A stretch of DNA of 45,380 bases from Bacteroidales bacterium (GTDB lineage Bacteria; Bacteroidota; Bacteroidia; Bacteroidales; PUMT01): positions 1-45,380 of the forward strand of contig SLPB01000064.1 in the NCBI GenBank assembly GCA_007132225.1, read 5' to 3'. Every line of letters starts with the position of its first letter. The stretch's first letter is position 1. Positions 1-31,206 of the stretch are shown in pieces. The position numbers were made by a program, and so were the translations under genes. The notes beneath the pieces were generated by a model, which saw nothing but the letters and a program-made list of their open reading frames with translations, was not told the origin of the DNA and searched no databases.

Positions 1-1038
1 GGACTGGTCCCAGGATATCTTCATTGAAGGAAATGCATTTGCCACTGTTGTCGGCATTACAGTCTCACTTTTCAGGGTGGGAATGTCTTTCAGATATTCG
101 GAAATATAATTAATCCGGTCAAGCCATTCCTGCCACTCCTTTTCATGGTCCTTTTCCAGGTAAGATTTAAGAGCTACATACATCCCAAATATCTCTTCCT
201 TGTTGACCTTCATTGGCCTTGCCACGGGACATTCGTGGGGACTGTTATTTAGTCTGGCTGCTCTGATCAAATCCTTACGTCCAAACAATAAACCGGTACT
301 TTGAGGGCCATGCATCATCTTGCCCCCTGAAAAGGTTACCAGGTCAAACCCCATTCTTATATATTTAAACAAATTATCCACGGGAGGCACATCGGCTGCA
401 CAATCGTTAAAGCTGACAATGTTATGCTCTTTACTTATAGCAACGAACTCTTCATGACTAATGCTGTGTTTCTCTGCACAGTTTAAGAAAAATGCCATCA
501 CAGTATTTTTGTTAATCGCCTTTTCCATCTCATCAGGACCATCAACCTCCACGAGCTTTGCTCCCGCTACACGAATGAGCTGATCCCATTCAGACCTGTG
601 AGATTTTTGGATAATAACTTCACGTTTTGGTCCGGGAAGATCAGGAAGCTGATTGATCTTCTCCGGATCAGTGCCTGTCATAGTTGCAGCAGTTCCTAAA
701 ACTATTCCGCCAGCTGCACCGGAAGTAACCATGGCAGCCTCACATTCCAGCATCTCAGCAATTTTTTCACCTGCCCTGTCCTGCAGCTCATGCATATTTG
801 CAAAACTTCCGGAGGTCTGGTCTATAGCTTCCAGCACCTCTGGCAACATAATCGATCCGGATAAAAATGTTTTTGTGAGACTACAGTTGATAAGTCGCTT
901 AACGCCCAGTTCATCAAAAAGATCTCTTTTATTGGATGCAACCTCAGTATTACAGGAATACATTGGAAGTGTGGCTCCAAATGCTGCTCCGGCGACGGGT
1001 AACACGGATAATCTTTTAATAACCTCTCTGCGTTTCAT
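1..1038 (-). CDS. SelA-like PLP-dependent enzyme, exported, partial at left edge
   Basis: The reading frame starts with ATG at 1038 and runs open to base 1 (346 codons), so the C-terminus is outside the window; the family is usually about 370-480 residues. The fold is that of the selenocysteine-synthase-like aminotransferase group, which includes the DgaE/EF_0838-type glucosaminate ammonia-lyase relatives and not only true SelA. Seen in the sequence: the PLP lysine K240 in FSGGKMMHGPQ, an upstream NDCAAD stretch (about 211-216) where the cofactor-binding Asp is expected, and VTSGAAGG near residue 105. The N-terminus MKRREVIKRL followed by a hydrophobic stretch resembles a Tat signal, unusual for this normally cytoplasmic family. 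It is the last visible gene of a trio with RidA (85-bp gap) and an amidohydrolase, which supports an ammonia-lyase or aldolase-like role on an amino-sugar acid; the substrate is inferred, not shown. Confidence 0.8.
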   Translation of the reverse strand, partial: MKRREVIKRLSVLPVAGAAFGATLPMYSCNTEVASNKRDLFDELGVKRLINCSLTKTFLSGSIMLPEVLEAIDQTSGSFANMHELQDRAGEKIAEMLECEAAMVTSGAAGGIVLGTAATMTGTDPEKINQLPDLPGPKREVIIQKSHRSEWDQLIRVAGAKLVEVDGPDEMEKAINKNTVMAFFLNCAEKHSISHEEFVAISKEHNIVSFNDCAADVPPVDNLFKYIRMGFDLVTFSGGKMMHGPQSTGLLFGRKDLIRAARLNNSPHECPVARPMKVNKEEIFGMYVALKSYLEKDHEKEWQEWLDRINYISEYLKDIPTLKSETVMPTTVANAFPSMKISWDQS

Positions 1039-1123
1039 AAAATAAAATTTAATTAGTAATACTATGATGTACTTCAAGGTAAAAAAGCAGTAACGCTCTT
1101 ATTTTTTATAACCAAAATTGATG

Positions 1124-1588
1124 CTAGATATAAGCCATGCAATCCATTTCAACAAGTGACTTCCCGGGAAGGCCTCCTTTGGCAACTGCTACAGTTGTCC
1201 TGACAGGGGGCTGATCCCCGAAACGGCCCCTGTACTCTTCATTCATGGCATCATAATCGGCTATATCATCAAGATATACATTTACCTTAACAACCTTTTC
1301 CAGTGATGATCCCGATTTTTTAAGCTCCTCCTCCATTTTATCAATGACAAGTTTAGTATGCGCCTTGATTGTAAAAGGCGGGACATGGGCTCCGGTGCCT
1401 GATACAAACAGAAAATTCCCGTACCTGGTTGATCCTGAATAGAGAGGAATATCCTTAAAGCTGGTGATATTAAGTGATTCCCTGGATTCATTAGAATAAG
1501 CCTTTGCATTGAAGGCAAATGCCAGCCCTGTTAAGCCTGCGAAAGAGGTTAACATTTTTTTTATTACAGATCTTCTTTTTGTTTTCAT
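1124..1588 (-). CDS. RidA family enamine/imine deaminase with export signal
   Basis: RidA (YjgF/YER057c/UK114) proteins hydrolyse reactive enamines and imines, typically released by PLP-dependent dehydratases or lyases, to keto acids plus ammonia. Seen: about 120 residues of RidA fold, including LFVSGTGA, VVKVNVYLDD and PPVRTTVAV with the family's key Arg, followed by MDCMAYI at the end. The preferred start is MKTKRRSVIKK at 1588; an upstream in-frame ATG at 1600 would add only MNLL. The extra N-terminus carries a twin-arginine-like motif (KRRSVIKK), a hydrophobic core (LTSFAGLTGLAFAFNAKA) and a probable AxA-type cleavage site, so this copy appears to be exported, which is not usual for RidA. 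It lies between the amidohydrolase (135-bp gap) and the SelA-like enzyme (85-bp gap), as expected for a protein clearing that enzyme's intermediate. Confidence 0.88.
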   Translation of the reverse strand: MKTKRRSVIKKMLTSFAGLTGLAFAFNAKAYSNESRESLNITSFKDIPLYSGSTRYGNFLFVSGTGAHVPPFTIKAHTKLVIDKMEEELKKSGSSLEKVVKVNVYLDDIADYDAMNEEYRGRFGDQPPVRTTVAVAKGGLPGKSLVEMDCMAYI

Positions 1589-1723
1589 AAGCAAATTCAA
1601 TTAATTGTTTCTGATTAACATTGAAATACTATTGATATAAGTTACATAACTCATATTCCATTTTAAAAAACAGTTATCCGGAAAAAACAATTAGCTTAAG
1701 GAATAATCCATTTTAACTCCTTT

Positions 1724-2968
1724 TTAATATCTTAATAACGGGTCTGCAATACCGTTTAAATCATACACAATCTTTCCTGCCCGTATGGTCATCTCACATT
1801 CAAATTTCTCACCGGTTTCTATCTTGTCCCCATAGGGATCAAAAAGTCCGAACCTGCCTTTCCTTATATTAAGTATAGCAATATCGGCTTCTGCCCCGGG
1901 AGATAAATTTCCTAACTCCTCCCTTCCAATAACCCGGGCCGGGGTCCATGTACTTGCTTTGATTACACTTTGAAGGTCCATCCCCATAGCCAGGAATTTA
2001 GACATCGTTGTAAGCATATCCTTCATTGAGCTGTTCATGCTTAGTGTATGTATGTCCGTACTTATTACATCGGGATAAAAACCACTGTTTAGTGCAGGTA
2101 TAGCCTGTGAATAGGCAAAACTAAGAGCACCGTAACCAACATCAAAAACAATTCCCCTGTTTTGGGCCTTTTTGACATAGGGCTTTAATATTTTGGTTTC
2201 CCTGTCAACAATATTTTCCCTTCTTCCCAGCCGGGTGAAAGTATGAGTAAAAATATCACCGGGACGCAGGTGATCCATGAATAACTCTTCAAGGGGAAGG
2301 TGAGGATTGCTTCCGCCAAAATCAATCATTACTGGAATATCTGCAAGCTTCCCGGCTGCAACGGTCTTTTCCGTTGGCGTCCAGTCAGGACCGTAAAAAT
2401 GTGCCAGTTTGATGCCTACAATATCGTCCGGATATTTCCTGGCAAATTCACCGGTAACTTCAGAGTCCATATCAAGAAGATTCTGCGAAAATATCACGCC
2501 CCTCATGCCTGTACCCAGAATATTTAAAAACGCCAGCACCCTGGTTTGGGAAACATCAATCACTCTCCTTTTAAAAGCAGGAAATGTACGCCAGCCAGAG
2601 CCCCCGGCATCGACTACAGTGGTAACTCCCACCCTGAAAGTAAAACCGTCGGGCTCAATTGAAACCGGATGTTCCCAGTATTCATAATCCAGATCAACCC
2701 CGTTAAAGACGTGCACATGCATATCAATAAGTCCAGGTACAACATAAAAGCCACTGGCATCAACAACCTGAGCTCCTTCTTTACCATCAATATTTTTCGC
2801 GACCCGGACAATTTTACCGTCTTTTACGGCAACATCCATTACTTGGTCAACCTGGTTTTTGGGATCAATGACATGTCCGCCTTTTATGACGATATTATAA
2901 ATCTGCCCATAAACAGAGGTGCTAATTAAACAAAATACCACGCATAAATATAGAATTACTTTGTTCAT
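1724..2968 (-). CDS. Amidohydrolase/deacetylase family metallohydrolase (COG3964-like), secreted
   Basis: A 414-residue amidohydrolase-superfamily protein with a Sec signal peptide (MNKVILYLCVVFCLISTSVYG, cleavage near residue 21). Metal-site elements are visible: H-x-H in IDMHVHV (H84, H86), a candidate bridging Lys in VGIKLAH (K187), HTFTR near residue 242, and the late Asp in STDIHT (D305). The N-terminal VIKGGHVIDPKNQ and C-terminal GAEADIAIL segments are the usual small beta-sandwich of D-aminoacylase/dihydroorotase-type enzymes. It best resembles the EF_0837/AHA_3915 group (COG3964), which is known to sit next to SelA-like DgaE enzymes and whose physiological substrates are poorly defined. 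It is the first gene of the trio and has a 353-bp upstream gap, so the trio is probably its own transcription unit. A deacetylase of an N- or O-acetylated substrate upstream of the PLP step is an inference. Confidence 0.85.
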   Translation of the reverse strand: MNKVILYLCVVFCLISTSVYGQIYNIVIKGGHVIDPKNQVDQVMDVAVKDGKIVRVAKNIDGKEGAQVVDASGFYVVPGLIDMHVHVFNGVDLDYEYWEHPVSIEPDGFTFRVGVTTVVDAGGSGWRTFPAFKRRVIDVSQTRVLAFLNILGTGMRGVIFSQNLLDMDSEVTGEFARKYPDDIVGIKLAHFYGPDWTPTEKTVAAGKLADIPVMIDFGGSNPHLPLEELFMDHLRPGDIFTHTFTRLGRRENIVDRETKILKPYVKKAQNRGIVFDVGYGALSFAYSQAIPALNSGFYPDVISTDIHTLSMNSSMKDMLTTMSKFLAMGMDLQSVIKASTWTPARVIGREELGNLSPGAEADIAILNIRKGRFGLFDPYGDKIETGEKFECEMTIRAGKIVYDLNGIADPLLRY

Positions 2969-3060
2969 AAGAGAAGATTAAATTTAATTAATGGTCTTAT
3001 AAAATTTAACATAAAGGCATTTTGCATACGAAGAAATTGCACAAATTCAGAGTAGAAAAG

Positions 3061-3089
3061 CAAATGCTAAAGTGCTGTAAATAAATCAA
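3061..3089 (-). promoter_or_regulatory. Possible Bacteroidota-type promoter for the trio
   Basis: Read on the minus strand, TTG (3089-3087) is followed after 17 nt by TAGCATTTG (3069-3061). The -7 element has one extra base compared with TAnnTTTG, but the TTG-to-TTTG distance is close to consensus and the predicted leader is about 75 nt. This is a weak call because AT-rich DNA gives chance matches. Confidence 0.3.
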
Positions 3090-3092
3090 CCG

Positions 3093-3148
3093 GTTGTATG
3101 CATCATTTTACTAGTATACAATAATACAATAAAATGATAATATACAAC
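3093..3148. repeat. Long imperfect inverted repeat (AT-rich)
   Basis: Arms 3093-3110 and 3130-3148 contain two paired blocks, GTTGTAT/ATACAAC and ATCATTTTA/TAAAATGAT, separated by a 2-3 nt bulge, with a 19-nt loop. No U-tract follows on either strand, so it is not a canonical terminator. It sits immediately upstream of the possible trio promoter, so an operator or mRNA structure is possible. Confidence 0.5.
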
Positions 3149-3321
3149 AATTTACTTTCTTCCTTAAGCCCGGCAAACGACTCTCAATCAATTGATGGAG
3201 GAACCCTGAGCCGTGCCACCATCCCACCATTCATCACTCAGGCCCGGTCGGTGTTCCCTGATATTTATCATAACATATAATGTATTGAATAAAAAGATTA
3301 AAGGCTCTTATTTGTCAGCAA

Positions 3322-18635: not shown

Positions 18636-20924
18636 TTACCCGGTGCCGGCAGGAACTATTTCCAGGATTCTCAAACCCCGGGGCTCGAGTAAAATATCAA
18701 TATGAATATCCGGGTCATCATAGGGAGCAAGCAATTCCCTACCCTTATTGCTAATTATATAGATATTCCCTCTATCATGAAGCCCATAGTCATTAGCATT
18801 AAATTTAAAATTAACGGGTAGGGCATCATCACTTATACTTGCCAGAACAATCCCCACATTGTTATCATCTGCCATCCATGCCCCGGAATACAATATGGGG
18901 ACAGTCTTTTTAAAAGAAGTTACAGTTTCGCCACTTCTCCCTGCATAGATAGACAATCTGGAAATATCTATTTCTTTCTCCGGAATTTCAATATGAGGGG
19001 CACGTAGAAATTTCCCGTATAACAAATATTTTAATCCTTTATACCTTAACCTTGCAATATCCAAAAGGTAATCAATTTCATCTTCCCTTTCAGATGCAAG
19101 AAAAGTATGATAATTTGCAATTGCCGGCTGCATGCCCCAAACAAAAGACCTTGCCTGTTCCATTAGGAACTGCTTATTAAAGACCTCATCAAGCAGCTGT
19201 TCTGTTTCATCGGGTGCATGTTCCACGGGCCATAACTCATCATAGGGCGGAGTAACCAGGGAGGAATAGCTACCGTAGGTAATGCCATATTGGTGGTATA
19301 CTGCCTGAAAAAAGGGGATAGTCTCAATACCTTCTGCTCCGGCATATCGTTCCCTGCTCGCCTGCAAGGTTAAAAAAGCATCAAGATCAGGAAGCCAGTT
19401 TTCGGATGATCCCTCACCGGTAAAAATGGGCTGTTTATCTCCGTAATCATTTGACCTAACCTGATTTATAAGTTTCCGGGAATTTTCTATCCAGTAATTG
19501 CCTCCCCCGATATCATGTCCATGACCGGTATCATAACACATCCGGCTTAAACAGGTCTGATCCATGTAAACACCATTGGTTTGATAAATATTAACAGCAC
19601 TGTCACATAAAGATGAATAATAATCTCTCCAGAATTCAGTACCGACACACATATTTATAAGGGCATTGCCTGAAAATTTATTATAAACGTTGGAGCGTAT
19701 ATTCCCATCTATATCTTTGACTGTATAAGGTTCAACCTTCCCCGATTTCCAGCTTTCGGTAACATCCCCCCACTGAAGTGCATTCATATAAACATGGCAG
19801 TTAACACCCTGTTCCTGCGCCGAGGTTACAGCGCTTATAAACGATTCCTTCCCTTCCCTTGGTGGCATATATTCGGGGAAATTATCATCGTAGGAACAAT
19901 TATGCCACCAATGCCAGAAAACACTTACCGGCAGGCCGAGCCTCTGTTTCAGTTCCACTGCCGGTGTAAGAACATTGTCAGATTCACCCCTGTTCCATAT
20001 CCATAGAGCAGTTTCTTCCAGCCATGATGGCGTCAATCCGATTTTAAACCTACTCTCGGCAGCCCACCTCTGCTCCAAAGCCCAATCCCTGTAAACCTCT
20101 GCGGCAGTAATCCAGTCACCCCTGAAAGATCCGATTACTGCTTCGTAAGAAGGGGTATAGGAACTTAACGTTGAATCCAGGGCAGGGTAATTAGTCATTT
20201 CATAAACAAGTGTGCTGAGGGTATCAAGTTGAAAGGAGAAGTTTTTAATATACGATAAAGAATCATTGCATGCGGCATAAAAGCCGGTCTTTTCATCACC
20301 ATATAAAAAAACAACCTGACTTGAAAGGGATCCCGGGTAAGACCAGTCCCATCTGTTTCCACGACGGTCAGAAAGCTGTGCCCTGGGTTTGTCAATTAGC
20401 TGACCCATCCATGTAGGGACAGCTAATTTTTCTTCTCCCTGATTCTTTAATCCTTCAATTTTAGGAAATGTCACGCCGGCAATCTGGTAACCCTTTATCC
20501 CGTTCAGAGATATATTCCAGTAAGACAATGCCTTCTTTTTGTCGACAGTGATTTTTGCCGTTACCTGAAAGTCTTTATTTTTTATTCCTTCAAAGTTTTC
20601 CCATTTTAACATAATAGTTAAAGGATCAGGATTTGAATAACTAAACCCGGAAGGTGTATTCTTATCAATCCTGAATGTTCCTGAAGGTTGCTTTAAACTT
20701 ATTTCCCAGGGTAACCCTGTGATTAAATCCTTATTAAGTAATTCATATTCGTTAGCCAGGTCGCTAAAAACAATAAAAGCCCCGGTATTTTTATCAAATC
20801 CCAGTTTAATTTTATCGTTTTCAATATATACGCGTTCTGAAGGGGAATCAACACATCCGGAAAAAAGAAATAAAATTAAACTAATCAGTAAAACAGGATG
20901 AGGATATTTTTTCATTTTTTTCAA
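18636..20924 (-). CDS. DUF6259-like TIM-barrel glycoside hydrolase candidate, lipoprotein
   Basis: A 762-residue lipoprotein (LFSGC, C24). After an N-terminal beta-rich region (about 25-290), the central part reads like a glycosidase TIM barrel: LWIWNRGESDNVL, LPVSVFWHWWHNCSYDDNFPEYMPP, NCHVYMNALQWGD, a strand-end acidic residue D455 in GVYMDQ, and a second in FTGEGSSEN (E504). A C-terminal beta domain follows (about 660-762). This plan resembles the DUF6259 proteins found in PULs of sulfated polysaccharides and distantly the GH36/GH97-like barrels; no activity can be assigned from sequence alone. D455 and E504 as catalytic pair is an inference from position. Its start is 22 bp downstream of the GH78 rhamnosidase stop, so the two are co-transcribed and probably act sequentially. 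Confidence 0.7.
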   Translation of the reverse strand: MKKMKKYPHPVLLISLILFLFSGCVDSPSERVYIENDKIKLGFDKNTGAFIVFSDLANEYELLNKDLITGLPWEISLKQPSGTFRIDKNTPSGFSYSNPDPLTIMLKWENFEGIKNKDFQVTAKITVDKKKALSYWNISLNGIKGYQIAGVTFPKIEGLKNQGEEKLAVPTWMGQLIDKPRAQLSDRRGNRWDWSYPGSLSSQVVFLYGDEKTGFYAACNDSLSYIKNFSFQLDTLSTLVYEMTNYPALDSTLSSYTPSYEAVIGSFRGDWITAAEVYRDWALEQRWAAESRFKIGLTPSWLEETALWIWNRGESDNVLTPAVELKQRLGLPVSVFWHWWHNCSYDDNFPEYMPPREGKESFISAVTSAQEQGVNCHVYMNALQWGDVTESWKSGKVEPYTVKDIDGNIRSNVYNKFSGNALINMCVGTEFWRDYYSSLCDSAVNIYQTNGVYMDQTCLSRMCYDTGHGHDIGGGNYWIENSRKLINQVRSNDYGDKQPIFTGEGSSENWLPDLDAFLTLQASRERYAGAEGIETIPFFQAVYHQYGITYGSYSSLVTPPYDELWPVEHAPDETEQLLDEVFNKQFLMEQARSFVWGMQPAIANYHTFLASEREDEIDYLLDIARLRYKGLKYLLYGKFLRAPHIEIPEKEIDISRLSIYAGRSGETVTSFKKTVPILYSGAWMADDNNVGIVLASISDDALPVNFKFNANDYGLHDRGNIYIISNKGRELLAPYDDPDIHIDILLEPRGLRILEIVPAGTG

Positions 20925-20946: not shown

Positions 20947-23900
20947 TTACTTACTATTTATCAGACTCAGCTCCCGGCTGATTCTTTCAAGAACCGGATC
21001 TGACACCCTTAATTCTTCAGGTAAAGAGTGCATCGCCAGAGCTGGTGAGAATCCCATTACCTGGCTCAGCCAGGGGGAGCCGGTAAGTTCAGGAAGATGT
21101 TTATAAATAATTTCACGGGATTGCTTAACGGCAAGCAGCTCGCCTATGGTGTTTTCAATACTGAGAGCCGGCAAAGCAACCTGTTCCTCTATCCCGGCAT
21201 CTGCGGCCAGCTCTGCTGAGTTATAGGAAAATGTATATTTGCCGGAACCAAGCTGCACCAGGACATTCTCATCCTGCTGTGAGAGGCTGGAAATTCCGGG
21301 AGAAGATGCGGGATCAGAACCGCCCTCCCTTACATTCTCAAGAATGGCACCCGGCAGATAAAGAGTGGCTGTTGTATTTGAAGGTACCTCGATATCAAGT
21401 ATAAACCGGCTGCCATCAAATTCCCATGATGATTCGATCCTTCCATACATGGAATTTATAATCGCCCTTGCATGATCCATGCCCCCACCCGGGATTGGTT
21501 TGATAATAACCGACCTGTACCCTGATCCGGGAGAAGGCTTTATGCCGGCAACCGTTTCGAACAGCCATTCTCCAATTGCACCCTTTGCAAAATGGTTAAA
21601 CGAGTTCATTCCCGCATCCTGGAATGTGCCGTCAGGTTTGATGCCGTCCCATCTTTCCCATATGGTGGTGGCCCCCATGGTTACAGGATACAGCCATGAA
21701 GGATAGCTTTCCCTGAGCAGCAGTTCATAGGCTGTTTTGCTGTGTCCGTATTGGCTGAGAATCGGATTAAGGTGAGGGGTGCCCAGGAAGCCGGTGGTAT
21801 GGTGCCCCCTGTTCTGAACATCGGTAACCAGCCTGTTAACCGCAACCGGTATTTTATCCTCCGGCAGCAGGTCAAAAGCAAGAGCAAGCAGGTAGGCTGT
21901 CTGGGTGTCTGACATTACCCTGCCACCCGGGGTTACATATTCATGAATAAATGCATTTTTGATCTTTTCAAAAAGCGCCCCATACTCTTTTGCATCATCC
22001 TCTATACCAAGGATATGCGCAGTTTTGTGCAGCAGATCGGTTGAGCGGGCAAAGTACATTGTGGCTATCATGTGATAGTCGGTATAGGCACCGGGATAGT
22101 GTGCATCGCTCGAAGTGCTGAAAGAGAGCCAGTCCCCCCAGGTAAAATCCACATCCCACAGGTAGGTATTCTCATTGGTTGCAGCCCTGCGCCTCATATA
22201 TTCAACCCATGCTTTCATACTCTGATACTGATTTGCCAGAATTAAAGTATCTCCGTAATACTGGTACACTGACCAGGGGACAATAAGGGCAGCATCTGCC
22301 CAGCCGGCACCCCCAAATCCCCTTCTGCTCCTCACATTGGGAACTACAGCGGGAACACTTCCTTCCTCGTCCTGGTCCGCTGCCAGGTCACCAAGCCATT
22401 TGGCAAAGAACCGGGCAGTATTCATATTAATGTTGCCAGTGGGTGCAAAAACCTGTACATCTCCTGTCCACCCCATCCTCTCATCCCTTTGGGGACAATC
22501 GGTGGGGACATCAAGAAAATTCCCTTTCTGGCCCCAGACAATATTATGCTGCAGCTGGTTAACCAGCGGGTGAGAACTCTGGAAATGGCCTGATGGCTCA
22601 ATGGCAGAATGGATCACCACCCCGGTGAGATCATCTGCTGACAAATCGCCGGGAAACCCTTCAACGGCAACATACCTGAACCCCTGAAAAGTGAAACGGG
22701 GTTCCCATACCTCCAATCCGCCTCCCTTCAGCACATAGGTGTTTTCCTGCCTGGCCGACCGCAGGTTTTCAGTATAGAAATTACCATCCTTATCCAAAAC
22801 CTCAGCATGCCTGAGGGTTACTCTTGTGCCGGCCTCCCCGTTTACCTTCAGTCGCATCCAACCTACCATGTTCTGTCCCATGTCAACAACTGTTTCACCT
22901 TCGGGGGTAGTAAAGATATCCACAGGTTTCAGCTCCTGAATTTTCATTACAGGCGGCGCCTCCTGTGCAATCAGCTTTTCTGTACCATGATCCGCAATTC
23001 TCACACCCTGCCAGTTAGTATCATCGTACCCGGGCATTGTCCACTCTTCCTTTTCCAGCCTTGCATCATAATATTCACCATTGTAAATATCTGACCTTAG
23101 TATCGGTCCGGTCGTTGCTTTCCAGTCCTTGTCGGTGGTGAATAACTGCCGGCTGCCATCCTCATAAATTATTACAACCTGTGCCAGCAGGGCAAGGACC
23201 TCTCCATAATAATTTCGCTGCCAATCCCTTCCGCCTATGTATCCTCTGAACCAGCCGTCACCCATATAAACGCCTATGGCATTCTTCCCCTGTTGAAGAT
23301 AGTCTGTTATATCATATACCTGATACTGAAGTCTGTTGTTATAACTTGTCCAGCCCGGTGTAAAGAGCTCCTGCCCCACCCGGCAGCCGTTGATATGCAT
23401 TTCATATAAGCCGTGAGCAGTCACATAGGCCCTTGCAGAAACGATCCTGTCTGTTGCATCAAACTCAGATCTCAGCATAGGGGCGGGTTGTGAATCCGAA
23501 TAGTCTTCCTCCAAATCAGGTTCTATCCAGGATGCTTCCCAGTCCCATTCACTGAGCATTCCCATTTCCCAATATGCAATTTCACTCCATGGAGATATAT
23601 TTTGATGATTATCCCACACCCTGACCCTCCAGTAATAACGCTGACCGGATTGAAGAGGCTGCCCTTCCCAGTGATTGTGTATTGAATTGCCTGATGATAC
23701 TATGCCGCTATCCCATAAAAGATTGCCTGCTTTCAGCTGCTCACTGCTTGCGGCGGTCTGCATCTGCCAGGCAGTCTGCAGGGTATTTCTCAGACCACTT
23801 TCAATGACCCAGGAAAACCTTGGGTCAGGCTGATCAATGCCAACAGGATTGATGGAGTATTCGGTTTTAAGGCCGGTAACACCAAGTGATGATTTGGATT

Positions 23901-24027
23901 GTCCCGGGTACATCAAGGATGCAGGGATGATCATCAGGAAAACCAGAAGCACTGGTTTTGAAAAGGCTGTTAAGTTCATATAAAAAAGTATTAAATTGAT
24001 TATATAGACTAAGGTAAAATTCTTCAT
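20947..24027 (-). CDS. GH78 family alpha-L-rhamnosidase, secreted
   Basis: GH78 enzymes are inverting exo-alpha-L-rhamnosidases. This 1026-residue protein has the full multi-domain plan: N-terminal beta domains (about 50-350, with YYWRVRVWD and WTSYNNRLQYQVYDITDYL), a further beta domain with VVDMGQNMVGW, the (alpha/alpha)6 barrel, and a C-terminal beta-sandwich (GYRSVIIKPIPGGGM). The hallmark CPQRDERMGWTGD at 511-523 contains the general acid Glu (E516 by alignment with the family), and WERWDG at 790-795 contains the second conserved Glu (E791), the usual base. An in-frame ATG at 23979 (MNLTAFSK) would give a cleaner signal peptide than the longest start. Its presence is the best evidence that the target polysaccharide contains terminal alpha-L-rhamnose. 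It precedes the DUF6259-like gene by 22 bp. Confidence 0.93.
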   Translation of the reverse strand: MKNFTLVYIINLILFYMNLTAFSKPVLLVFLMIIPASLMYPGQSKSSLGVTGLKTEYSINPVGIDQPDPRFSWVIESGLRNTLQTAWQMQTAASSEQLKAGNLLWDSGIVSSGNSIHNHWEGQPLQSGQRYYWRVRVWDNHQNISPWSEIAYWEMGMLSEWDWEASWIEPDLEEDYSDSQPAPMLRSEFDATDRIVSARAYVTAHGLYEMHINGCRVGQELFTPGWTSYNNRLQYQVYDITDYLQQGKNAIGVYMGDGWFRGYIGGRDWQRNYYGEVLALLAQVVIIYEDGSRQLFTTDKDWKATTGPILRSDIYNGEYYDARLEKEEWTMPGYDDTNWQGVRIADHGTEKLIAQEAPPVMKIQELKPVDIFTTPEGETVVDMGQNMVGWMRLKVNGEAGTRVTLRHAEVLDKDGNFYTENLRSARQENTYVLKGGGLEVWEPRFTFQGFRYVAVEGFPGDLSADDLTGVVIHSAIEPSGHFQSSHPLVNQLQHNIVWGQKGNFLDVPTDCPQRDERMGWTGDVQVFAPTGNINMNTARFFAKWLGDLAADQDEEGSVPAVVPNVRSRRGFGGAGWADAALIVPWSVYQYYGDTLILANQYQSMKAWVEYMRRRAATNENTYLWDVDFTWGDWLSFSTSSDAHYPGAYTDYHMIATMYFARSTDLLHKTAHILGIEDDAKEYGALFEKIKNAFIHEYVTPGGRVMSDTQTAYLLALAFDLLPEDKIPVAVNRLVTDVQNRGHHTTGFLGTPHLNPILSQYGHSKTAYELLLRESYPSWLYPVTMGATTIWERWDGIKPDGTFQDAGMNSFNHFAKGAIGEWLFETVAGIKPSPGSGYRSVIIKPIPGGGMDHARAIINSMYGRIESSWEFDGSRFILDIEVPSNTTATLYLPGAILENVREGGSDPASSPGISSLSQQDENVLVQLGSGKYTFSYNSAELAADAGIEEQVALPALSIENTIGELLAVKQSREIIYKHLPELTGSPWLSQVMGFSPALAMHSLPEELRVSDPVLERISRELSLINSK

Positions 24028-29082: not shown

Positions 29083-31101
29083 TCATTCCCCGGTCATCGT
29101 GCTTTTGATAAGGTTATCCAGGTCCCATCGGGGACGCTCCCAGTAATTTGTGACGCGAAGCAGGTCAGAAAAATAGGATTCCTGGTTATCCTTACGGAAC
29201 TTCACCAGTTCCCGGAGAGCTTCTCCGGCCTCCTCCATTCGCCCTTCGGGAACAGTACTGTTTCCATCGAAAATCGAAGCAAGATTTATGGTCAGTCTGG
29301 CATGGTCAAGGCCAATCCGAAGAAATTCCACCCTCCCGGCATACTCTTTTTTTGATGAAGTGAGGGCTTTTTCCAATGCCCGGTCCAGTATTTCCTCTGC
29401 CTGTTCAATTACCTCCAGTGGAAAAGCTTCATGTGCCTTTAACGGGTAGGCCCTGTAGCGCCACCCAACACGTGGATTATGGAACATGTCTATAAAGTTA
29501 AGGACATTGTCAAAGGCGAAGTCTTCCCAGTAGTTAAAATAGTGTTCAACATTTTCGGCTGCCGGCCCGAATGCGGAAAAATATTCGTCCCTGATCTCCC
29601 CGATTTCAATTTCAGGTTTGCTGATAAGACGCATATGCATATAAAGCCGGGGACCATGCACTGCCCACTGGCCGGTATTGCTATCAAACCTTGCGCCTTC
29701 CATGCCGTGTTCAAAGGCCCACTTAAAAAAGTCACCGGATTGCCGGGTCTCAAAATGGGGCATCACATAACCGTCATGCAGGTAGTTTGGCCGGTAACCC
29801 ATGCGCAGGCCAGTGTTTTGCCAGCCCAGCCATTGTTCTTTGATCCACTCATATGCTTCTTCCGGCATTGGAAACCACCGTAGGTGGGGGTCCTGCCACT
29901 GCACGAATTCGGCATAGATGTTCTTGTTCAGCCGGATGCCTGTAACAGGCGCAGGAAATTCATTTTCATAGATAAAGGATCCGGAGACGATGACGTGGGG
30001 ATTCCTTTCCCGGGCTTTTTCCTGGATGGTTTTCCAGAAGCGTGCATAACGGTCAGATGTAGCACCATGGAACACTTCGCTGGCACGGGAATCAGCCTCA
30101 TATACATATTTGGCAAACCAGGGGGGTGTTTCAGGCTGGGGGCCATCCCATGACCGGCATTCCTCGCATGTACACCTGCCCGGCCGGTCAACCGGCCCGA
30201 GGCGAAGAACGCTTTCGCCATCCCATTGTTCAACGATAAAATCCTGTAGCTCCTCGTTGGTAACACAGATATCCACGTGTACAGCCTCCGGGTCCGGATC
30301 TCCCCTTGTACCATCACGCCTTAAACTAAACCACTCCGGATGTTCCCTGCCATAGCGCTGCCACCATCCGCTGAATCCATGGCCTGTTGGTGGTTTGGCA
30401 TCCATACCGCCCATGCGGTGACGCCGCAGAAAAACCGATAGTGCACCGGCATAATTATGGGCTACATCATGGGAAAATCCAAGTAAAGCATCTTCTTCTT
30501 CGATCTTGCCCCCGTGTATTAAACCACGCACGGGACCCCAGACCAGTTCACGGAAATTGAGGGCAGGAGAGTGGAGGCGGTTAATGGCATTAACCTCAAC
30601 AGCCGTTGCTACAGGCACATATGTGCCGAGCTCACCTGGCCAGAGCCAGCGTACCTTCAGCACCTCTTCAAGAAATTCATAAACTCCAAAGAGAGTTCCG
30701 GCATTAGGGTTGGACGGATCCAGGGGATCGCCATCATCCTCTTTGCCAACAATAAAAAGGTCATTACCAACCGAGCGTAAAATAAAAGCTTCCCGTGGCA
30801 AACGGCCCGGGTCTATTCCGTGATGCGGACCGGTCTTGGTTTCACCTATGTATACCCTTGTGTGGATATCTGCGGGAGCATCGGATTCAGTTACAGTCTC
30901 CAGCCTTACACCTGTAGCCTTTTCTACATGGCCTACCAGTTCGCCAGCAGCATAACGGGCAGTTGCCGTGGCATCATCGGCGGTAACCACAACCGCATAA
31001 GCCTTTCCATCCCGTACTAGGATAACCTGGGCCATTGATGTTGTATTGCTTAGAACGACGCAAATAAAAATGGAGACGAACAGATGTTTAATGAGATTCA
31101 T
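29083..31101 (-). CDS. DUF4838-like secreted glycoside hydrolase candidate
   Basis: The start at 31101 (MNLIKHLFVSIFICVVL) gives a standard Sec signal peptide ending near TSMAQ (residue 25); an ATG at 31131 would add ten polar residues. The mature protein (about 650 aa) begins with an alpha/beta domain like the N-terminal domain of GH67/GH20 enzymes (TARYAAGELVGHVEKATG, VYIGET, TLFGVYEFLEEVLKVRWLWPGELG). A barrel-like region follows, with HPEWFSLRRDG, a conserved Cys cluster CTCEECRSW (C310, C312, C315) and GSFIYENEFPAP. The C-terminus is helical. This is the DUF4838 layout; such proteins are frequent in PULs, but I know of no firm activity for this branch. It sits between two paralogous sulfatases (105 bp from the downstream one), so it presumably processes a desulfated oligosaccharide. 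Confidence 0.75.
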   Translation of the reverse strand: MNLIKHLFVSIFICVVLSNTTSMAQVILVRDGKAYAVVVTADDATATARYAAGELVGHVEKATGVRLETVTESDAPADIHTRVYIGETKTGPHHGIDPGRLPREAFILRSVGNDLFIVGKEDDGDPLDPSNPNAGTLFGVYEFLEEVLKVRWLWPGELGTYVPVATAVEVNAINRLHSPALNFRELVWGPVRGLIHGGKIEEEDALLGFSHDVAHNYAGALSVFLRRHRMGGMDAKPPTGHGFSGWWQRYGREHPEWFSLRRDGTRGDPDPEAVHVDICVTNEELQDFIVEQWDGESVLRLGPVDRPGRCTCEECRSWDGPQPETPPWFAKYVYEADSRASEVFHGATSDRYARFWKTIQEKARERNPHVIVSGSFIYENEFPAPVTGIRLNKNIYAEFVQWQDPHLRWFPMPEEAYEWIKEQWLGWQNTGLRMGYRPNYLHDGYVMPHFETRQSGDFFKWAFEHGMEGARFDSNTGQWAVHGPRLYMHMRLISKPEIEIGEIRDEYFSAFGPAAENVEHYFNYWEDFAFDNVLNFIDMFHNPRVGWRYRAYPLKAHEAFPLEVIEQAEEILDRALEKALTSSKKEYAGRVEFLRIGLDHARLTINLASIFDGNSTVPEGRMEEAGEALRELVKFRKDNQESYFSDLLRVTNYWERPRWDLDNLIKSTMTGE

Positions 31102-31206
31102 AGGATAATCCATTTTAATTTTTTTACTCAAAGTTTACCTGTTTTATATATTTGATTATCAAATTTAAAAAATAAACCTTCTGAAGGGTCAAATTATTCG
31201 AAAAAA

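Follow-up and report, generated by a model that had tools for sequence, protein, structure and literature searches.

A gene trio with predicted export signals as the probable core of an extracytoplasmic oxidative amino-sugar pathway in Bacteroidota

Three adjacent minus-strand genes at the start of a 45,380-nucleotide stretch from a Bacteroidales bacterium (assembly GCA_007132225.1, contig SLPB01000064.1, positions 1 to 45,380; the whole stretch is called the window here) encode a COG3964-type amidohydrolase, a RidA-family protein and a SelA/DgaE-like pyridoxal phosphate (PLP) enzyme. Each begins with an export signal, and the question is why enzymes of these families should leave the cytoplasm and on what compound they would then act. 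Sugar catabolism beyond the monosaccharide is usually cytoplasmic, and PLP lyases, RidA proteins and aldolases are regarded as cytoplasmic. The trio was deduced to be, with fair but far from full confidence, the core of an oxidative route for amino sugars outside the cytoplasm, in which an N-acetylhexosaminate would lose acetate and then ammonia to give a 2-keto-3-deoxy acid. What was observed directly, and used in this deduction, is the genes with their signal sequences and active-site residues, and the way they co-occur and cluster. The trio and its signals, of the twin-arginine translocation (Tat) and secretory (Sec) types, are as follows.

1 to 1038, minus strand: SelA/DgaE-like PLP enzyme (clade A), 346 residues read, the C-terminus being lost at the contig edge; proposed 2-amino-2-deoxy-hexonate ammonia-lyase.
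952 to 1038, minus strand: Tat-type signal region of the PLP enzyme, MKRREVIKRLSVLPVAGAAFGATLPMYSC, with a possible weak lipobox; R3 is kept in 102/103 and R4 in 101/103 aligned short sequences.
1124 to 1588, minus strand: RidA-family protein, 154 amino acids, PF01042; proposed enamine/imine hydrolase.
1499 to 1588, minus strand: Tat-type signal region of RidA, from the sequence; R5 is kept in 54/54 and R6 in 53/54 aligned sequences.
1724 to 2968, minus strand: COG3964-type metal amidohydrolase, 414 amino acids, NF006689; proposed N-acetyl-hexosaminate deacetylase.
2906 to 2968, minus strand: Sec-type signal peptide of the amidohydrolase, MNKVILYLCVVFCLISTSVYG, followed by Q22, which is kept in 70/72.

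The initial annotation had described these genes as an adjacent trio with export signals, and both family profiles and signal sequences confirmed it. The amidohydrolase scored 437.6 bits against NCBIfam NF006689 (COG3964-type, PRK09237; cut-off 371). RidA scored 67.9 bits against PF01042 (cut-off 27.3) and 62.8 bits against the detoxifying-hydrolase profile TIGR00004, below its cut-off of 106.25. The PLP enzyme, scored without its C-terminus, gave 168.3 bits against TIGR01437 (under the 385.3 cut-off), a further family score of 132 bits, and 45.1 bits against PF03841 (over the 22.8 cut-off). Its N-terminus, MKRREVIKRLSVLP, and that of RidA, MKTKRRSVIKK, were read as Tat-type signals, and that of the amidohydrolase, with STSVYG directly before Q, as a Sec-type signal; the kind of signal thus differs inside the trio. 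Start codons and signals were picked by script. A twin-arginine n-region, a hydrophobic stretch and a host bearing TatC, which is encoded elsewhere in the window genome, together mark the two Tat-type proteins as predicted Tat substrates.

The conservation of these signals was followed in relatives obtained by searching with the PLP enzyme through a single genome of each species, from which the best 79 distinct loci of 310 stretches were taken. These loci were chosen by similarity and many are closely related to each other; most are from Bacteroidota, four from Acidobacteriota and one from KSB1. Conservation counts take in the window protein and were restricted to sequences within a fixed length range. 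Among the 103 PLP enzymes, Pro14 was the sole position besides the twin arginines to be kept in at least 95% over residues 1-31. A crude Tat-like rule (RR close to the start, a hydrophobic stretch after it) picked out 105/108 PLP genes and 51/53 RidA genes of the 79 loci, together with 4/82 amidohydrolases and 47/664 genes without a family label. Export signals are apparent on the whole trio, as claimed earlier for this one genome, and they are kept far outside it.

The possibility that the signals were misread, and that the enzymes are cytoplasmic like the DgaE systems of Enterococcus or Salmonella, has a precedent in the Enterococcus cluster, where a phosphotransferase system (PTS) subunit, an amidohydrolase, a DgaE-family lyase and a sugar kinase occur. 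It was deemed extremely improbable and was rejected on the Tat-like rule counts and on the twin arginines, which are retained in 101/103 and 53/54 sequences though most of the signal region varies. The dehydrogenase, lactonase and aldolase neighbours in relatives also bear signals of their own.

Co-occurrence outside this genome was looked for and is present. The amidohydrolase lay within 5 kb of the best PLP gene in 61/79 loci and a Tat-type RidA in 44/79; within 7 kb of a PLP gene, the counts were 62/79 for the amidohydrolase and 58/79 for a RidA-type protein; in L049 and L058 the PLP gene had been overlooked by the gene caller. An even sample of the phylum, 296 genomes with a completeness of 90% or more and the window's own genome among them, contained the PLP enzyme (E ≤ 1e-40) in seven genomes and the amidohydrolase (E ≤ 1e-40) in the same seven, clustered in each; at most six first-look amidohydrolase candidates were scored per genome, so that copies elsewhere could be missed. 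This sample is not fully independent of the 79 loci (compare G273 with L040/L029 and G356 with L039). The six other carrier genomes all had the PLP enzyme, amidohydrolase and RidA genes together, and five of the six had a gluconolactonase and a cytochrome-fused dehydrogenase, neither of which was found in the 20 kb of G204. Also from the even sample, the PLP gene of L106 stands alone near a contig end, and the RidA copies of L104 and L105 have Arg-Lys in place of the twin arginine. A one-genome oddity or chance was ruled out by the relatives' loci and the 296-genome co-occurrence. Within the window's genus the PLP enzyme (E ≤ 1e-30) was found in 1/12 other genomes, several of them only 74-88% complete, and the core therefore seems to be an accessory trait there.

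The substrate was deduced mainly from the genes that surround the trio in relatives, the recurrent families being named after the Pfam matches of one or a few members in each cluster. These were a pyrroloquinoline quinone (PQQ)-type sugar dehydrogenase fused to cytochrome c, an RraA-like aldolase and an SMP-30 gluconolactonase, and further a second RidA-type lipoprotein, a CBM9 protein, an SBF-family transporter and SusC/SusD. Within 7 kb of a PLP gene the PQQ-type dehydrogenase occurred in 39/79 loci, RraA in 27/79, a lactonase in 23/79 (18 under stricter clustering) and GH20 in 5/79; amidohydrolase, RidA-type protein and either dehydrogenase or lactonase were jointly present in 37/79. A hydrophobic signal region was found in 34/35 cytochrome-fused dehydrogenases and 26/27 RraA proteins, both misses being cut by contig ends, and in most of the 18 gluconolactonases, one of which is cut by a contig end while the start in L011 is ambiguous. 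The order dehydrogenase-lactonase-amidohydrolase-SBF-RraA-RidA-PLP on one strand was seen in L052 and L067, and PLP-amidohydrolase-GH20-lactonase-RraA-SBF, also on one strand, in L061. L007 and L011, of clade A like the window, have an 8-bladed PQQ dehydrogenase, lactonase, PLP enzyme, RidA (its frame overlapping the PLP frame in L007), amidohydrolase, SBF and RraA, and L008 and L012 have a gluconolactonase in addition to trio genes. In eight genomes picked for complete-looking clusters the strong lactonase homologue was single and in or near the cluster, which was not used as evidence.

A clue to the substrate came from the order on a Granulicella plasmid (L110, Acidobacteriota): RraA, PLP enzyme, RidA, long PLP enzyme, amidohydrolase, lactonase and a BBE-type oxidase, with Tat-type signals on both PLP enzymes, RidA and the lactonase. 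The oxidase matched PDB 7zzk, an N-acetyl-D-hexosamine oxidase (NagOx), with 543 bits (E=4e-162), and 114 of the first 202 compared positions were identical. NagOx prefers N-acetylated hexosamines by four orders of magnitude, with kcat/KM of 6.4e5 for N-acetylglucosamine, 9.3e5 for N-acetylgalactosamine and 23 for glucose (PMC9850908); for the Ralstonia solanacearum enzyme, its discoverers call the function unclear and report no pathway (PMC9299179). At L110:11644-13604 a small protein bearing a Tat-like signal comes after the oxidase, and joint export is possible.

An amino-sugar acid was favoured as the substrate because the relatives' clusters hold exported-type dehydrogenases, lactonases, RraA, five GH20 and the NagOx homologue. 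That different oxidising enzymes, a PQQ-type dehydrogenase or a NagOx-like oxidase, are used by different lineages indicates the same step. By their predicted families, a C1 oxidase, a lactonase, a deacetylase-family and a hexosaminate-lyase-family enzyme, RidA and an aldolase spell out an oxidative amino-sugar route. The initial proposal of extracytoplasmic breakdown of an amino-sugar acid is largely supported by these neighbours and by the signals. Alternatively, the extracytoplasmic substrates of the trio could be N-acyl-D-amino acids, for instance N-acetyl-D-serine or D-threonine, which would undergo deacylation, PLP-dependent beta-elimination and clearance of aminoacrylate by RidA. COG3964 enzymes hydrolyse N-acyl-D-amino acids and acyl-hydroxy acids, and the search of the window genome did not turn up the steps that oxidise the sugar. 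In addition, OngC, of the oxidative chitin pathway compared below, deaminates D-serine and D-threonine besides glucosaminate (PMC9537276). This alternative was considered unlikely, as it leaves unexplained the dehydrogenases, lactonases, GH20, RraA and N-acetyl-hexosamine oxidase homologue of relatives.

The oxidative amino-sugar route would proceed as follows, and we infer every reaction, substrate and protein location in it from sequence. The starting compound would be a 2-acetamido-2-deoxy-aldonic acid, N-acetyl-glucosaminate or a stereoisomer, and in many relatives the prior steps would be carried out by the GH20, PQQ-type dehydrogenase and gluconolactonase of the cluster, while in an acidobacterium the oxidation would fall to the N-acetyl-hexosamine oxidase homologue. 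The Sec-exported amidohydrolase would convert the N-acetyl-aldonate to the free 2-amino-2-deoxy-aldonate and acetate. The SelA/DgaE-like enzyme, folded around PLP in the cytoplasm and then exported by Tat, would remove the 3-hydroxyl of the aminoaldonate by beta-elimination, and the Tat-exported RidA would aid enamine/imine hydrolysis to yield the 2-keto-3-deoxy-aldonate and ammonia. In many relatives an RraA-like aldolase would then produce pyruvate and glyceraldehyde, the SBF-family transporter also serving in these later steps, and in the window organism the keto acid would pass to cytoplasmic enzymes.

In the amidohydrolase, the proposed deacetylase, the active-site residues H84, H86, K187, H242 and D305 are present in 72/72 members and His190 is invariant among them, D216 lies at a strand end in the model, and this model fits the COG3964-type structures 8je0, 8wzy, 2ics and 2ogj; no literature naming 8je0 was found. 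RidA R130, presumably equivalent to the catalytic Arg105 of the Escherichia coli protein, is present in 54/54 aligned sequences.

For the PLP enzyme, Lys240, which aligns with the Schiff-base lysine of DGL, and Asp212 are present in 103/103 aligned sequences. DGL, which is the closest characterised relative in terms of the proposed activity, converts glucosaminate-6-phosphate to 2-keto-3-deoxygluconate (KDG)-6-phosphate and ammonia via beta-elimination, and its reported substrate is a beta-hydroxy-alpha-amino acid (PMC9529869). The model of homologue L009 fits DGL (7lc0) with a template-modelling (TM) score of 0.88 by target length, and the best fold match of the SelA-like model is Cap15 (8t7j; TM 0.90 by target length), an O2-using enzyme that also acts on a beta-hydroxy-alpha-amino acid (PMC7497351). 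Arg301 of DGL lies opposite Ser in relative L066, and two other proposed phosphate-site arginines of DGL fall outside the alignments obtained. Changes at His163 (see below) and Arg301 would agree with a substrate that carries no phosphate and with RidA playing a greater part. From the Cap15 match it could also be argued that the exported enzyme is an O2-using oxidase or decarboxylase like Cap15 or PvdN rather than an ammonia-lyase, since PvdN is a Tat-exported PLP enzyme (PMC6085387) and both use O2 (PMC7497351). This is very unlikely in our judgement: the DGL fit is nearly equal, and a keto-acid product would suit the neighbouring RraA aldolase and RidA. A COX1-type oxidase was not found in the window genome or in its congener G012, a mild argument that points to anaerobes, as do genes upstream in L008 that we take to be Rnf-like.

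A tree of 119 PLP sequences, from which eight loci were left out as duplicates or fragments and in which a few duplicates remained (L095, L098, L005/L091), resolved clade A (45), clade B (63) and a long group (11). These may be split by sugar stereochemistry. The long subfamily, of about 530-575 amino acids with an extra C-terminal part (L066:4020-5666, L008:13283-14884, L012:14925-16532 and others), has its own RidA and amidohydrolase in some loci. In the same-genus genome G012 (L091:4013-11625) an amidohydrolase, a long PLP enzyme, an L-lactate permease and a flavin adenine dinucleotide (FAD)/4Fe-4S dehydrogenase follow consecutively. This set could mean a lactate-releasing reaction, for example elimination of D-lactate from oxidised muramic acid; across the 79 loci, no permease relative was detected close to the PLP genes. 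By the PLP genes of three Bacteroidales-like loci lies a protein with a twin-Arg start (L008:11393-12964, L012:11347-14580, L077:12769-14367; DUF362 by Pfam in L008 only). A haloarchaeal plasmid homologue of the PLP enzyme (L113:4983-6194) is near a PL8-type lyase and an AGE-family epimerase.

Several observations weigh against the oxidative amino-sugar route. At the strand-5 position of the amidohydrolase, His is present in 4/4 solved relatives (2ogj, 2ics, 8wzy, 8je0), where we take it to be a metal ligand, whereas the 72 members have Asp (68) or Glu (4) and no His. This is a marked departure from solved COG3964-type proteins, and activity is therefore not to be copied from the characterised enzymes. 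In the PLP enzyme, His163, the proton donor of DGL, lies opposite Asn186, an Asn in 101/103. With regard to export, the Granulicella oxidase lacks a signal when read from its annotated start, and none was seen in the KSB1 homologue L073 of the PLP enzyme. With regard to gene content, no dehydrogenase or oxidase, lactonase or RraA was found within 7 kb of the PLP gene in 23/79 loci; these include L049 and L058, where the PLP gene was uncalled and a separate listing agrees, and also L009, a Bacteroidales locus with the trio in exactly the window's order, and L006 from the window's genus. The PLP gene of L006 adjoins a PfkB kinase and two aldo-keto reductases that begin with twin Arg. The expectation that trios of close relatives would carry signals too held in that no signal-less trio was seen, but the PLP enzyme of L006 has neither RidA nor amidohydrolase nearby.

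The window genome itself (3.3 Mb, 181 contigs) adds to these points. The cytochrome-fused dehydrogenase and RraA were not found in it at E ≤ 1e-20, and its sole gluconolactonase is distant (28%). PF01011 gave three short weak matches in long frames, above the Pfam cut-off when summed, and no full-length PQQ dehydrogenase was among them. A KDPG (2-keto-3-deoxy-6-phosphogluconate) aldolase is present. Since the genome is 96% complete, the absences are not certain. As the dehydrogenase and aldolase were not found, the organism would have to obtain the sugar acid ready-made or make it otherwise, and it looks like an anaerobe carrying only the pathway core.

As the source of such a compound, the initial annotation had suggested the locus upstream of the trio, which it read as a sulfatase polysaccharide utilisation locus.

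2969 to 3321: gap of 353 bases that separates the first sulfatase from the trio, which may form a transcription unit by itself.
3322 to 45342, minus strand: sulfatase-rich SusC/SusD locus upstream of the trio, with BNR, DUF6259 and DUF4838 proteins; context rather than a conserved part.

This locus contains SusC, two SusD, BNR proteins and sulfatases on the strand of the trio, with nine sulfatases recognised by Pfam, in a scan that left out the 1026-residue frame 20947-24027, and three more by translation. Its DUF6259 and DUF4838 proteins (window 18636-20924 and 29083-31131) are possible uncharacterised glycan enzymes. One sigma-70-like site was found on the minus strand in the gap, in a scan that was uninformative for promoters (9 found vs 8.2 in shuffles) and for terminators (4 vs 2.0). 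The adjacency of about twelve same-strand sulfatases suggests that the trio might be a tailoring step for a sulfated polysaccharide. This was judged improbable: a sulfatase is present in only 6/79 relatives' loci (in the stretch fetched), the trio stands 353 bases away from the first one here, and general sugar oxidation genes are commoner in relatives. On the 6/79 loci a conserved sulfatase link was rejected, and such loci are not supported as a general origin of the substrate.

Extending the oxidative amino-sugar route beyond the window, we tentatively propose, at slightly less than even confidence, that a minority of Bacteroidota and some Acidobacteriota perform a whole non-phosphorylated Entner-Doudoroff-like catabolism of N-acetylhexosamines outside the cytoplasm. 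It would comprise C1 oxidation, lactone opening, deacetylation, SelA-like deamination, RidA imine hydrolysis and RraA-type aldol cleavage, so that only small acids and ammonia would enter the cell. Different sugar stereoisomers would be handled by the three SelA-like subfamilies, and anaerobes like the window organism would keep only the core and live on the sugar acids of others. An exported version of the pathway was not found in a literature search of open-licence papers, and the larger exported sugar-acid pathway seems undescribed so far. If correct, acetate and ammonia would be set free outside the cell, which bears on cross-feeding, electron transfer and product retention by polymer degraders. 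The proposal would also supply a reason for RidA in such operons, left open by the ong authors (PMC9537276).

The closest known systems share some features with the trio and differ in others. NagOx, with a homologue inside the Granulicella cluster, was reported without a pathway, and the present clusters would suggest one for this oxidase of unclear role (PMC9299179). DGL shares the SelA-like fold and Schiff-base lysine, whereas its His163 and Arg301 are not kept here; it further differs in PTS import and a phosphorylated substrate (PMC9529869), for which reason its pathway was taken as cytoplasmic. The Enterococcus cluster likewise has a COG3964 amidohydrolase beside a DgaE-family lyase, but RidA is not annotated in that stretch; at L112:2898-6200 a MupG-family protein, the amidohydrolase, the lyase and a PTS subunit suggest a phosphorylated cytoplasmic counterpart. 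PvdN provides a precedent for Tat export of a fold-type I PLP enzyme (PMC6085387), and Cap15 is the closest solved fold and shares the substrate class, but both serve the biosynthesis of bioactive compounds with O2 (PMC7497351). The most similar logic is found in the ong oxidative chitin pathway of Pseudoalteromonas prydzensis, with OngB, OngC and OngD (PMC9537276, PMC12017989), where a deacetylase, a PLP deaminase and a RidA protein serve the use of N-acetyl-glucosaminate; OngC yields KDG and ammonia, and OngD is needed in vivo, its role being reported as not known (PMC9537276). In contrast to the present trio with its export signals, the ong steps were proposed to be cytoplasmic, following uptake through OngIT; OngB resembles D-aminoacylases and has a Cys/His/His site where a COG3964 amidohydrolase is found here, and OngC is of fold-type III where the present PLP enzyme is SelA-like (PMC9537276, PMC12017989). 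The structural matches of the trio were to SelA-like and COG3964-type proteins rather than to the OngB and OngC families, a comparison made through these matches and not by direct alignment. The predicted logic of the trio is thus that of the ong pathway, but with other enzyme families and with export signals.

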